A DNA stretch of 64,000 nucleotides from contig NZ_JAVBXD010000004.1 in NCBI RefSeq assembly GCF_030756675.1, positions 1-64,000 of the forward strand, written 5' to 3'. Positions within the stretch are counted from its first letter, which is position 1; each line of letters starts with the position of its first letter. Below are positions 52,941 through 56,687 of this stretch, piece by piece. The position numbers and the translations under genes are program-made. The notes beneath the pieces are model-generated. The model searched no databases. It was not told the origin of the DNA and saw nothing but the letters and a program-made list of their open reading frames with translations. This DNA comes from Bacillus multifaciens (GTDB taxonomy: Bacteria; Bacillota; Bacilli; Bacillales; Bacillaceae_G).

Positions 52941-53594
52941 TTAACTTGATATAGAAGATTTATTGTCGACTACATGTGGGAGAAATGTTTGATGAAACAT
53001 GATACATAAAATAAGCCAACTTCCTCCAGCAGCCCAGCCCGCTAAAATATCAGACGGATAATGTACGCCTAAATATATTCGACTAATAGAAATGGAGAAG
53101 ATAAGAAAGCAAGCAATAACAATCAGCAGTAATTTTTGATGTAATTGTAGGCGGTGTTCAGTAATTGTAATGTATGCAATAAACCCAAGAAATGCAACAG
53201 CATTCATCGCATGTCCGCTCGGAAAACTGTACCCTGTCGCAGTAACAAGTTGTGATATATCAGGCCTTGGTCGTTCATACCATACCTTTAACATATAGTT
53301 CAAATAGCGCGAACCATAAAAATTTATCATTAACAAAATCGCTGTCATGTATCGTCTTCGAATTAAGAAATACATAAACAGGATAAACAATACAGGAAAA
53401 TATACCTTTTTTGAACCAATATAAGACATCCATACAAAATAAGCGGTAAAATACTCGTTGCGAAAACTTTGTATATAATCACTGACTACATGATCAAATT
53501 GATTAACAAAAGATGTTTCATAAGAAAAAGATAGTACGACAAAACAAACAAGTAAAACAAAAAGTAGCATATATAAATGTCGATATCTCTTCAT
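52941..53594 (-). CDS. PAP2-family membrane phosphatase (YodM-like)
   Basis: 217 residues from ATG 53594 (GTGAGG 9 bp upstream). Six membrane spans with the three phosphatase motifs: KVWYERPRPD (K-x6-R-P), TGYSFPSGHAMN (PSGH) and SRIYLGVHYPSDILAGW (S-R-x5-H-x3-D). It acts on lipid phosphates such as undecaprenyl-pyrophosphate or phosphatidate; the exact lipid is not known. It is last in the unit peptide-kinase-Spo0M-PAP2, and the position near YozD recalls B. subtilis yodM. Confidence 0.9.
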   Translation of the reverse strand: MKRYRHLYMLLFVLLVCFVVLSFSYETSFVNQFDHVVSDYIQSFRNEYFTAYFVWMSYIGSKKVYFPVLFILFMYFLIRRRYMTAILLMINFYGSRYLNYMLKVWYERPRPDISQLVTATGYSFPSGHAMNAVAFLGFIAYITITEHRLQLHQKLLLIVIACFLIFSISISRIYLGVHYPSDILAGWAAGGSWLILCIMFHQTFLPHVVDNKSSISS

Positions 53595-53666
53595 CTGCAT
53601 AACCTCACTATACAAAAATGGAGCGGGTGTTTTATTTTCCCTCTCCATTTCTTTTTTATGCATGAA

Positions 53667-54425
53667 TCAGCAAGAAATATAACTGTTAATTTTTTGCTGC
53701 ATTGTTGGAATGTCTTCACGCTTCACTGTGAAACGTAAAACTTTTTCATCCATATCTAAAGCTTCAGATAATAGTCCAGCAATCCCTCTTGCTTTTCGAT
53801 CTACTTCCATCACAATTTCTAAACTATCATACGAACGCGGGATAATCAAAAGTTCTAATTCATCGAGCTTTCCATAATATTGTCCGGATACAGGAACAAA
53901 TTCAAACTCTTGCGCGAATGGGACGTGATCGCGCAAACGGTATGGAAGTTCTTCACATTCCGCTTGACGAAGATGAAACCCAAGATTTTGGACTGCCTCT
54001 AATACACTTTTTAATAACAAGTTTGGTAGTATTTGAATGTAATCCCGGTCACTTGGGTCAATGCTGCGTTTAATATCTAGACCAGTCTGCACCCAAACGG
54101 TTTTCATTCCAAATGTTAACGGTACTTCAATCGGCATTGGGAATGAAAATGGAATTTCTCGTTTTTCATTTATCCCGATAGTAACAGGCGTTGTTAAACG
54201 AACTTTCTTTAAGTCATATGTTGAACTTATTTTCTTATCATCCACTTCACGAATATATGTCGTAGACAACGTTAAATAAATACTATCAATTTCTTGTGCT
54301 ACTGATCCGCCAGTAATATGTACAACCCCTGTAATTTCTTCACCGATAAGCCATTCTTCTTGTGTTAACACAGTGTCAACTTTTGCACTGCCAATACCAA
54401 CGCTTGCTAAAAACTTTTGGAACAT
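53667..54425 (-). CDS. spo0M: Sporulation-control protein Spo0M
   Basis: 252 residues, ATG 54425 (AAAGGATGGG inside the end of the kinase gene, which it overlaps by 19 bp). Arrestin-like N-terminal half: LTQEEWLIGEEITGVVHITG and REIPFSFPMPIEVPLTFG, with KTVWVQTGLDIKRSIDPSDRD as the family's best conserved block. Spo0M affects the Spo0A pathway and cell division in B. subtilis; the mechanism is unclear. Overlap with a kinase-like gene suggests a functional tie. Confidence 0.92.
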   Translation of the reverse strand: MFQKFLASVGIGSAKVDTVLTQEEWLIGEEITGVVHITGGSVAQEIDSIYLTLSTTYIREVDDKKISSTYDLKKVRLTTPVTIGINEKREIPFSFPMPIEVPLTFGMKTVWVQTGLDIKRSIDPSDRDYIQILPNLLLKSVLEAVQNLGFHLRQAECEELPYRLRDHVPFAQEFEFVPVSGQYYGKLDELELLIIPRSYDSLEIVMEVDRKARGIAGLLSEALDMDEKVLRFTVKREDIPTMQQKINSYISC

Positions 54426-55225
54426 GTATTTCCCATCCTTTCTATTATACAGCGCACATCTTCTATTAAATCTTGTACATTTTCATAATACGGTTCTTTC
54501 ATTTGTAACATCCGCATAATTACGTCACTACTATTTGCTGATAATGTTAATTCTTCGTGCCAGGGCCGTTCTTCTTTTGAAGATTCATAACTAGAATACA
54601 GCAAAAACAAAACGAAATGTCCAAGAGCATAAAAATCACTACGATAATGAATTTCGCGCATATATGCTTGTTCCCCTTTATAAGAATGAGCACGTTCATC
54701 ATTTTCACCAATAAAGCGAGCTAACCCAAAATCAATGATAAATATTTCATCATCATTCATTAAAATATTTGGAATTCTCAAATCGCGATGCACAATACCT
54801 TGACTATGAAAATAGGAAACAACATGAAGCACTTTATATAAAATAAGAAAAACTTCTTTCTCTGTATACATTTCTCCATACTCAAAAATAAAATCTTCAA
54901 ATGTCTTTCCGCGCATTTCCTCCATTACAAAAAAGGTTCCTTTTCTCCATGAAAAACTATGAAAGAAACAAGGAATTGCATGATGCTCTAACCGCTGTAA
55001 AATCGTTTGCTCATATGTAAACGATTTCCTACCTGATGTGTAGCGCTGTTTACTTTTTCGAAGTTGTTTTAATACTTTTTCCTCACCAGACAACAGGTCA
55101 GTAACAAGATACGTAAAACCATAACTTCCCATACCGAGAATACGTTGAATTTGATACCGCTGTGCAACGACAATATCGATGGACAGCGGTCGATCAAACC
55201 ATGCGAATACTTTTTGGAAATTCAT
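54407..55225 (-). CDS. Eukaryotic-type Ser/Thr kinase-like protein
   Basis: 272 residues. Kinase landmarks: RILGMGSYGFTYLV (Gly-rich loop, residues 29-42), KVLKQLRKS (VAIK-type lysine), HRDLRIPNIL (catalytic loop; usual K replaced by R) and IIDFGLARF (DFG). The substrate-side half is short and no membrane anchor or PASTA domain is present, so it resembles YrzF-like cytoplasmic kinases. It has no ribosome binding site: its ATG overlaps the stop of the preceding peptide (TGATG), and spo0M overlaps its end. All three are thus translationally coupled. Confidence 0.88.
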   Translation of the reverse strand: MNFQKVFAWFDRPLSIDIVVAQRYQIQRILGMGSYGFTYLVTDLLSGEEKVLKQLRKSKQRYTSGRKSFTYEQTILQRLEHHAIPCFFHSFSWRKGTFFVMEEMRGKTFEDFIFEYGEMYTEKEVFLILYKVLHVVSYFHSQGIVHRDLRIPNILMNDDEIFIIDFGLARFIGENDERAHSYKGEQAYMREIHYRSDFYALGHFVLFLLYSSYESSKEERPWHEELTLSANSSDVIMRMLQMKEPYYENVQDLIEDVRCIIERMGNTCSKSF

Positions 55226-55416
55226 CAGCTACTAGAGAAAAAGCTGCGACTTTTATGTTTTCTTTTATAATGATGATGCCCATACCCATGAGATGGATGA
55301 TGCTTATGATAATCGCTGCTAGAATACGAACGATGTCGATGACGATAATCACTACTGGAGTAAGAGCGGTGCTTATGCTTATTGCCTAGAATAGAATCAA
55401 TAATTTTTTTGAACAT
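55225..55416 (-). CDS. His/Ser/Tyr-rich repeat peptide, candidate kinase substrate
   Basis: 63 residues from ATG 55416 (GAGGTGA upstream). A short amphipathic start (MFKKIIDSILGNK) is followed by a basic stretch containing two near-identical units, HRSYSSSDYRHR and HRSYSSSDYHKHH, then GYGHHHYKRKHKSRSFFSSS. Composition recalls spore-coat CotG-type proteins. Its stop overlaps the kinase start (TGATG). The Ser/Tyr clusters in front of a kinase gene suggest phosphorylation, which is only an inference. Confidence 0.7.
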   Translation of the reverse strand: MFKKIIDSILGNKHKHRSYSSSDYRHRHRSYSSSDYHKHHPSHGYGHHHYKRKHKSRSFFSSS

Positions 55417-55503
55417 CACTTCACCTCTTCAGAAAATTTTCACTTTTATTATACCAAATACAACGCGATATAGTGATATTAGTTTTATTATTTATACGAT
55501 GCA

Positions 55504-55529
55504 AAAAACGACGAGTCTATCCCGTCGTT
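55504..55529 (-). terminator. Terminator of the YozD-like gene
   Basis: AACGACG / CGTCGTT stem with T-run on the minus strand, overlapping the stop codon at 55528. Confidence 0.75.
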
Positions 55530-56024: not shown

Positions 56025-56687
56025 TTATTTTTTTTCGGATAATTTGATTAAATAATTACGTACAACTTCCATTACAATTTTATATTCTTCATCTTGAAAT
56101 GTTTCATATAATGTTCTGTAATCATTAAAAATATCTAATAAACCATCAATAATCTCTTTTCGATTCGTTTTTATACTTACTTTTTTCGAATTATTAATAG
56201 ACTTTAATTTACCTAAATCAAGCTTATTCATCCCTGCCTTATCTTGTTTCATTTTCTTTAAAATGACATTGGCTGTTTGTGCATTCGCAATCAGTGCCAA
56301 ATCGGACTCATCCGCTTCGAGCCATTCACCATCTGTAATACGAGATAATTCATATATTGTATCTTCCCAAGCATCATTTTTATAACGCCATACTTCCGTC
56401 CGGTAGCCAACAACACGAAATACATCTTTTTCATAGCCTGTAACCTGAACGAGGTCACCAAACGTAAATTTATAATGAAGTTCAATCCACTCTGATTCGC
56501 CATCTTTCATTTCTTGTTCTGTCACAAGCTGCAAAGTATGTTCTACATAAAATCCATCGTGATTGTTTACTTCATACACATAAACACCATCGAGCATTTT
56601 GATGTTCGTGATTTTTCCGACCGTACCATATAACGTAATCACGACTATATCTCCTATATTGTATTTGGGCTGCTTTTTTCTCGTCAT
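56025..56687 (-). CDS. YodN-like hypothetical protein
   Basis: 220 residues from ATG 56687 (AAAGGAGA 8 bp upstream; frame open to 56768). Two small beta-barrel-like units, each with a GD-V pattern: IGDIVVITLYGTVGKITNIK (residues 12-31) and FGDLVQVTGYEKDVFRVVGY (about 75-94), suggest SH3/KOW-like folds. The C-terminal third is helical and basic. Position between YozD and YozE matches B. subtilis yodN. The function is unknown. Confidence 0.7.
   Translation of the reverse strand: MTRKKQPKYNIGDIVVITLYGTVGKITNIKMLDGVYVYEVNNHDGFYVEHTLQLVTEQEMKDGESEWIELHYKFTFGDLVQVTGYEKDVFRVVGYRTEVWRYKNDAWEDTIYELSRITDGEWLEADESDLALIANAQTANVILKKMKQDKAGMNKLDLGKLKSINNSKKVSIKTNRKEIIDGLLDIFNDYRTLYETFQDEEYKIVMEVVRNYLIKLSEKK

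Follow-up and report, generated by a model that had tools for sequence, protein, structure and literature searches.

The locus under study lies on the minus strand of the window, by which we mean the whole 64,000-nucleotide stretch of DNA that was analyzed. It comprises a short open reading frame (ORF) for a basic peptide, a protein kinase gene, spo0M and a PAP2 phosphatase gene, with the following features:

55225–55416, minus strand: partner peptide, 63 aa, basic and Ser/His/Tyr-rich, stop codon included (ATG ORF and conservation)
55381–55416, minus strand: first 12 residues of the peptide, MFKKIIDSILGN, a conserved amphipathic basic N-terminus (alignment, hydrophobic moment)
55345–55365, minus strand: SYSSSDY unit 1 of the peptide (sequence; SSS clusters in homologues)
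55309–55329, minus strand: SYSSSDY unit 2 of the peptide (sequence)
55228–55284, minus strand: conserved C-terminal block of the peptide, YGHHHYKRKHKSRSFFSSS (alignments)
54407–55225, minus strand: Hanks-type kinase of the YbdM/PrkD family, 272 aa (PF00069, catalytic residues, AlphaFold2 model)
53667–54425, minus strand: Spo0M, arrestin-like fold (PF07070, fold comparison)
52941–53663, minus strand: PAP2 phosphatase, probable fourth gene of the unit (ORF, family match)
55448–55456, minus strand: extended −10 element TGGTATAAT, probable sigma-A promoter of the peptide gene (TGnTATAAT in relatives)
55507–55529, minus strand: terminator-like stem in the interval between yozD and the peptide gene (stem scan)

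The peptide, MFKKIIDSILGNKHKHRSYSSSDYRHRHRSYSSSDYHKHHPSHGYGHHHYKRKHKSRSFFSSS as translated from the ATG ORF at 55416–55225 (minus strand), contains 15 Ser, 12 His, 8 Lys, 6 Arg and 6 Tyr residues and no Glu. Its stop codon overlaps the kinase ATG (TGATG), and the kinase gene in turn overlaps spo0M by 19 bp. A first-pass annotation of this DNA had described the 63-residue peptide with its two SYSSSDY units and both overlaps, all of which were confirmed in the sequence. The same annotation had stated that the kinase gene lacks a ribosome binding site of its own; by eye, no Shine–Dalgarno-like run was indeed present ahead of the kinase ATG. Only 3 bp separate the spo0M stop codon from the start of the PAP2 gene, so that the tight unit extends to four genes. 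A PAP2 gene also follows spo0M in L003–L007 and L011. In Mesobacillus foraminis, a PAP2 gene is located beside the kinase gene, on the opposite strand.

Since the terminator-like stem separates yozD from the peptide gene, a separate transcript probably starts with the latter. One such site was found in the region, compared to 1.6 from shuffled sequences; by eye, L011 and L156 have a similar stem at the corresponding position, as does L088, where it is cut short. The neighborhood in the window also includes kamA, yokU, a YozE-like gene, yodN and yozD. YodN (56025–56687 of the window), designated a "germination protein" by NCBIfam NF058646, is encoded near the unit. Plasmid searches with the window locus or with a TnpB-like gene gave no match, nor did the kinase sequence alone when used as a query against genome contigs.

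A Hanks-type kinase in two gene arrangements

The window kinase is a Hanks-type protein kinase. It matched PF00069 with an E value of 1e-31 (110 bits, against a cut-off of 31.7) and carries the motifs GMGSYG, K53, E72, HRDLRIPN and DFG. The AlphaFold2 model had a pLDDT of 93.9, and the nearest solved fold was PknB. In an alignment of 30 kinase sequences, residues G31, G33, G36, K53, E72, H146, D148, N153, D165 and G167 were invariant, so that the ATP-binding residues, whose loss the first-pass annotation had named as grounds for doubt, and the catalytic residues are all present. A search of Pfam and NCBIfam at E up to 1 yielded no match between the window kinase and the CotH family. The match to CotS, a family other than CotH, was weak (19 bits; cut-off 172.7), and class III/IV lanthionine synthetases, enzymes that include a kinase domain, scored 72 bits against curated cut-offs of 575–650.

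B. cereus BC2258 is the likely orthologue of the window kinase. B. anthracis PrkD, which a 2012 study by Arora is said to treat together with PrkG, may be the same gene. The window kinase and that of L052, which is of the B. subtilis type, share 33% identity and are held together by one alignment and one tree, with no defined family cut-off. In the B. subtilis-type genomes (L046–L054), the kinases begin like MALKLLKKLLFDRPL, and a 61–64-aa peptide is encoded just downstream on the opposite strand. The start of the L052 kinase, MALKLLKKLLFD, is an exact match to the YbdM start encoded by a published primer (PMC3033389, in part).

Among 117 distinct kinases, the peptide gene was upstream in 82 (referred to in the following as operonic), convergent in 30 and missing in five, two of which are the zinc-ribbon variants L153 and L154 described below. 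This set left out identical kinases, L033–L038, L071–L074 and 14 loci outside the kinase pattern. A peptide was found in 14/14 of the latter, which include a locus whose kinase was not recognized (L068), a convergent locus that nevertheless has an RD kinase (L150) and an operonic one with HLD (L134). The two arrangements differ in their catalytic loop, HRD being present in 79/82 operonic kinases versus 1/30 convergent ones. In a quick IQ-TREE analysis of the 117 kinases, 112 of which were labelled, a single change split operonic from convergent kinases, so the pair remained linked while the gene order was rearranged. With its peptide gene upstream and co-directional, the window does not have the B. 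subtilis-type convergent arrangement. The nearest relative of its kinase in this tree was that of Ectobacillus (L011, 58%).

Conservation of the peptide and its pairing with the kinase

The occurrence of the pair was determined by searching 397 Bacillales genomes with one kinase profile and two peptide profiles (HMM). Matches at E 1e-48 or better were taken as family kinases; the next among the matches listed were long proteins of another kind, at E of approximately 1e-35 to 1e-34. By this threshold, 145 of the 397 sampled genomes had a family kinase among the matches listed, and the peptide adjoined the kinase in 139 of the 145, two of these as zinc-ribbon fusions. In 120 genomes, the peptide match was ≤92 bp from the kinase match, end to end, either upstream on the same strand (98) or convergent downstream (22). 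Individual reading of the remaining 25 added 19 adjacent peptides: 17 clear ones that had scored below the profile threshold (L056–L058, L060–L070 and L150–L152), and two, in L153 and L154 (genomes G086 and G085), in which the peptide motif ahead of the kinase is a fusion with zinc-ribbon-like segments. The fusions have YGN..HYQRKG, followed by a Ser-rich stretch and two sets of zinc-ribbon-like CxxC pairs, and their kinases are more distant.

An adjacent full peptide was absent in six of the kinase-bearing genomes. No peptide was found in G389 and G108 (L059 and L157), only a 40-aa ORF adjoined the kinase in G055 (L055), only unlinked copies were present in G341 and G400, and G136 had a peptide copy several kb from a kinase match containing an internal stop. 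Of the 252 kinase-less genomes, a single one (G218) had a peptide match, which was weak and short. The co-occurrence of kinase and peptide at the genome level gave a Fisher p of approximately 3e-78, with genomes treated as independent. A check of co-occurrence across genomes had been proposed in the first-pass annotation, and its outcome is that the peptide is conserved beside the kinase; judged from these sequences, the two are a genuine, widely conserved pair. Unlinked second peptide copies, accompanying a linked pair elsewhere in the genome, were seen in L071 and L072 and as matches in G258 and G321.

Two other searches covered different samples. In a separate one-genus search, the kinase was present in 17/44 genomes and the peptide in 17/17 of these. 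When species genomes were scanned using an alignment of two kinases, 32 loci were returned (L003–L034). In 29 of the 30 loci L003–L032, a Ser/His/Lys-rich ORF precedes the kinase in the same orientation, the exception being L026 from Priestia endophytica, with no peptide ORF adjoining the kinase. The most distant of the examined loci, L032 (30%, by alignment), is from Pelotomaculum, and perhaps the module occurs there too. L026 shares a kinase HND loop and the lack of an adjacent peptide with L135 and L136, whose genomes have an unlinked peptide match. L033, a Gemmatimonadetes kinase of 27% identity, falls outside the 30 examined loci. L034 (Bacillus sp. BHET2) has the kam/yod locus and spo0M, with a kinase match of only 43 residues, and its kinase is possibly decayed.

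When taken from their first start codons, the peptide and kinase ORFs overlapped in 25/82 operonic loci and were 0–31 bp apart in 55 more. The peptide finder used for the 82 operonic loci selects on composition and includes the 40-aa ORF of L055; the HMM counts are independent of it.

The peptide did not match any Pfam or NCBIfam family at E up to 1, and the ORF was taken as real because of its conservation, not its composition. Homologues are approximately 50–90 aa in size and, when aligned, share a common design, consisting of M[L/F/I]xK plus a hydrophobic helix, SSS clusters usually preceded by Tyr or His, YGHxHYK and a C-terminal FFSS. An SSS cluster was present in 79/82 operonic and 30/30 convergent peptides (109/112), the number of serine clusters varying up to four; 79/82 operonic peptides had a YGHxHYK-like motif, and 68/82 operonic and 29/30 convergent peptides started with M[LFIV]xK. 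In the 68 operonic M[LFIV]xK peptides, the mean hydrophobic moment of the first 12 residues was 0.55, versus 0.31 when shuffled, and the mean net charge was +13. The corresponding values for 29 of the 30 convergent peptides were 0.76 versus 0.34 and +18. The B. subtilis 168 peptide is presumably the protein named YbdL.

In 10 of 12 pairs of peptide homologues, dN/dS was 0.02–0.25; the other two pairs gave 1.18 on a single synonymous change and a saturated dS, respectively. By this comparison, the peptide is under purifying selection as a protein. Among the matches listed in the open-access PMC literature, titles and starts of abstracts contained no description of the peptide, the peptide–kinase pairing or the trio with Spo0M. 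Of two annotated, named records, both with incomplete gene tables, one misses the peptide and the other has it overlaid by another frame. In the former, from Cytobacillus spongiae (NZ_CP089998.1), the ORF (L001, 5751–5918) directly precedes the kinase in the same neighborhood as in the window and has no CDS in the PLSDB gene table, from which the original record may differ. In the latter, from M. foraminis (NZ_CP033045.1), the peptide (L002, 6914–7102; 28479–28667 of the record) is covered by CDS WP_162990425.1 (28475–28717), which ends 4 bp from the peptide stop, hence in another frame, and is probably a mis-framed annotation.

Promoters of the peptide gene and the place of Spo0M

When the upstream sequences were read, TGAAAC followed after 16–17 bp by CGTATA was noticed ahead of many peptide genes; we take TGAAAC-N16-17-CGTATA to be the SigW consensus. 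The exact motif TGAAAC-N15..17-CGTA occurred in 23/29 peptide upstream regions versus 0.005 from mononucleotide shuffles, although this test was partly made on the data that had suggested the motif, since it was noticed by reading the same 29 regions. The further counts given below add loci, but their genomes overlap with the original 29. In L001–L034 (404 kb, both strands), there were 28 sites, 24 of which were the one before the peptide. Of the distinct operonic loci, 59/82 had the exact motif before the peptide, compared to 2/30 convergent loci; an earlier convergent set had none for either gene (0/22).

SigW itself (TIGR02948) was found in 372/397 genomes at E 1e-30, 365 of them over the curated cut-off. 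Among 79 operonic loci of the sampled genomes, those with SigW were divided into 58 with and 17 without the motif, while the four without SigW all lacked it (0 with; Fisher p 0.004). These four genomes are not independent, L091 and L155 being near copies, and the lack of SigW in G411 was deduced from its absence among the 372 matches listed at the E 1e-30 threshold. In this table, L068, L157 and L172, which yielded no kinase ORF, were uncounted, and L171 was scored as "none" despite an adjacent peptide match. When idealized consensus sequences for sigma E, F, G, K, H, B and A were scanned in the 29 upstream regions, no clear excess was found: the highest values against mononucleotide shuffles were z 2.0 for sigma H and z 2.3 for sigma B, and the other factors were at or below expectation.

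Given the promoters in 59/82 operonic loci, the module there would be part of a membrane or envelope-stress response, with the peptide promoters putatively dependent on SigW. As far as sequence can tell, where the genome encodes SigW, membrane stress has the best support as the setting of the operonic class. It cannot be the only setting, since the convergent class mostly lacks the motif, as do 23/82 operonic loci, including the window.

The 150 bp upstream of the window peptide contained no SigW-type motif, even with one mismatch allowed. TGnTATAAT was present within 130 bp in 5/23 operonic loci lacking the ECF motif (L008, L011, L088, L091 and the window) versus 0/59 with it. The extended −10 of the window was not among the sites of a sigma-70 scan, which requires a −35 hexamer, and the genome of L008 (G340) has an extended −10, yet SigW is present. 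The window unit is probably driven by this extended −10 promoter, in the absence of a SigW promoter. We infer that the window belongs to or near the B. cereus group, in which six of the seven B. subtilis ECF sigma factors are not present (PMC3171730, in part); Table 3 of that paper names a B. cereus-group orthologue for SigM only, and the group is thus reported to be without SigW. B. anthracis itself was rejected as the source of the window, given that PrpB shares approximately 85% with PDB 4iqd, a B. anthracis structure, by eye.

The window Spo0M matched PF07070 at E 4e-76, and the Spo0M fold is present. It matched VPS26, ARRDC3 and arrestin-2, in a beta-sandwich match that was tied with unrelated folds. 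The first-pass annotation had presented peptide, kinase and Spo0M as a coupled trio. The tight coupling holds in the window, where PAP2 adds the fourth gene, but the trio is not a fixed one: spo0M adjoined the kinase in 40/82 operonic and 0/30 convergent loci, as sought within 450 bp at loci some of which carry only 500–600 bp of sequence past the matched kinase region. In B. subtilis, spo0M is a core sigma-W gene, the most reduced in a sigW mutant after sigW and rsiW (PMC3498285, in part), and is under SigW control together with sigma H (PMC5325327, in part).

Candidate function and relation to known systems

A protein of approximately 50–90 aa that was kept beside the YbdM/PrkD kinase in 139/145 genomes, even as the gene order changed, is the strongest candidate for a dedicated partner of this kinase. 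Only three Hanks kinases are named for B. subtilis, YbdM/PrkD among them (PMC6333020, in part). The reading that we favor, with a probability of roughly 0.55, is that the kinase acts with a dedicated, membrane-seeking phospho-acceptor, in many genomes as part of the envelope-stress response, and with Spo0M as a frequent third partner. Peptide and kinase would thus make up a dedicated two-protein module, widespread in Bacillales. The basic amphipathic N-terminal helix would settle the peptide on the inner face of the cell membrane, and the cytosolic kinase, made beside it through coupled translation, would phosphorylate its serine clusters (YSSSD). Phosphorylation would convert the strongly basic tail to a mixed or acidic one, so that its binding partners change. 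Spo0M, arrestin-like, encoded by a core SigW gene and present in about half of the operonic loci, is a likely downstream partner. An extension of this scheme, which we consider speculative and rather unlikely to hold as a whole, is a bacterial relay in which membrane stress causes the Hanks kinase to phosphorylate the membrane-bound mini-protein, Spo0M recognizes the phosphorylated tail and then targets the membrane or the division apparatus, and PAP2 acts on lipids.

What speaks against the peptide as acceptor is that the known YbdM substrates are other proteins. YbdM phosphorylates DegS at Ser76 (PMC3033389, in part), and the B. cereus YbdM (BC2258) uses CodY as a substrate, with Ser215 as the main phosphorylation site (PMC12583987, in part). 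The substrates named are AbrB, DnaC, DegS and CodY, at least AbrB, DegS and CodY being common to other kinases (PMC6213207, PMC3033389, PMC12583987 and PMC4837961, each in part). The peptide might therefore be a regulatory subunit (an anchor, activator or pseudosubstrate) that draws the soluble kinase onto the membrane or onto an acidic polymer, with DegS, AbrB, CodY and perhaps Spo0M as the real targets. We regard this as a tenable possibility, and hold it tentatively. Both proteins often start with a basic hydrophobic segment in the alignments, the conserved YGHxHYK...FFSS block lies outside the Ser clusters and resembles a docking motif, and there is a precedent in the Bacillus kinase YabT, which is activated via a DNA-binding motif (PMC3708118, in part). 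On the other hand, nothing in the sequence demands activation, and no feature of the peptide is repeated more than the serine clusters, with SSS in 109/112 and a number that rises to four, as acceptor repeats may.

The other explanations fare less well. The first-pass annotation had likened the pair to CotH and its substrate, which is reasonable as an analogy for a conserved kinase–peptide pair, and had placed the module in sporulation. The sporulation reading draws on the Spo0M name and an older sigma-G report, and was not supported by the present analysis. A spore or spore-coat phosphorylation module resembling CotH with CotB and CotG would account for the Ser-rich basic repeats adjoining a kinase, as in the CotH/CotB/CotG precedent (PMC7821199, in part), and for the vicinity of YodN with its NCBIfam "germination" label; B. 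subtilis ybdM is, moreover, a reported member of the sigma-G regulon, with transcription during exponential growth reported as well (PMC3033389, in part). However, the recurrent promoter is of the sigma-W type (exact motif in 23/29 loci), sites for sigma E, F, G and K were not in excess in the same 29 loci, and B. subtilis spo0M is core sigma-W (PMC3498285, in part). The kinase is of the PF00069 Hanks type rather than the atypical kinase-like fold of CotH (PMC7821199, in part), and two reviews that link Hanks kinases to B. subtilis sporulation make an exception of PrkD (PMC6213207 and PMC4837961, each in part). We thus consider the sporulation assignment improbable. An exported or membrane-active peptide, akin to a bacteriocin or RiPP, with a kinase that modifies it or protects the cell, would fit the cationic amphipathic N-terminus and the weak scores of lanthionine synthetases, but those scores miss the cut-offs by far, and no leader, transporter or cyclase was noticed among the listed neighbors by reading, as opposed to a systematic scan; this explanation appears very unlikely. 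The least credible is that the ORF is a mere leader that couples translation to the kinase, its amino acid sequence being irrelevant. The stop/start overlap in 25/82 loci would suit such a role, but a leader of this kind is contradicted by the dN/dS values, by the convergent loci, where the peptide is beside the kinase even on the opposite strand, and by unlinked copies that keep the peptide sequence.

The candidate peptide partner makes YbdM/PrkD function directly testable in B. subtilis 168, and the SigW promoters point to a specific stimulus to try. Published SILAC data include a ybdM knock-out (PMC6250715, in part). Compared to the SigW regulon of B. subtilis, in which spo0M is among the most strongly dependent genes (PMC3498285, in part), the operonic class is alike in having mostly SigW-type promoters and in including spo0M in about half of the loci. 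It differs in that 23/82 operonic loci, counting the window, are without the motif, and the main text of the regulon paper makes no mention of ybdM (PMC3498285). By analogy only, a kinase, a membrane-seeking tail with Ser clusters and an arrestin-fold protein in one operon recall the eukaryotic relay of receptor kinase, phosphorylated tail and arrestin, from which the operon differs in having no receptor and in that phosphate reading by Spo0M is putative.

In the CotH/CotB/CotG system, CotH phosphorylates the serine-rich repeats of CotB, promoted by CotG (PMC7821199, in part). The likeness lies in a kinase encoded together with Ser-rich basic repeat proteins that are substrates or promoters of phosphorylation; for the present module, adjacency and Ser-rich basic composition are observed and phosphorylation is putative. 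CotH is, however, an atypical, Fam20C-related spore-coat kinase (PMC7821199, in part), whereas the window has a canonical Hanks kinase with a partner family of approximately 50–90 aa, often under a SigW-type promoter. The closest comparison is with B. subtilis YbdM (PrkD) and B. cereus YbdM (BC2258), which belong to the same kinase family as the window kinase. YbdM is of the convergent class, with a non-RD loop, HSDIRTPN, and the peptide downstream on the opposite strand, whereas the window kinase is operonic, with the RD loop HRDLRIPN and the peptide upstream.
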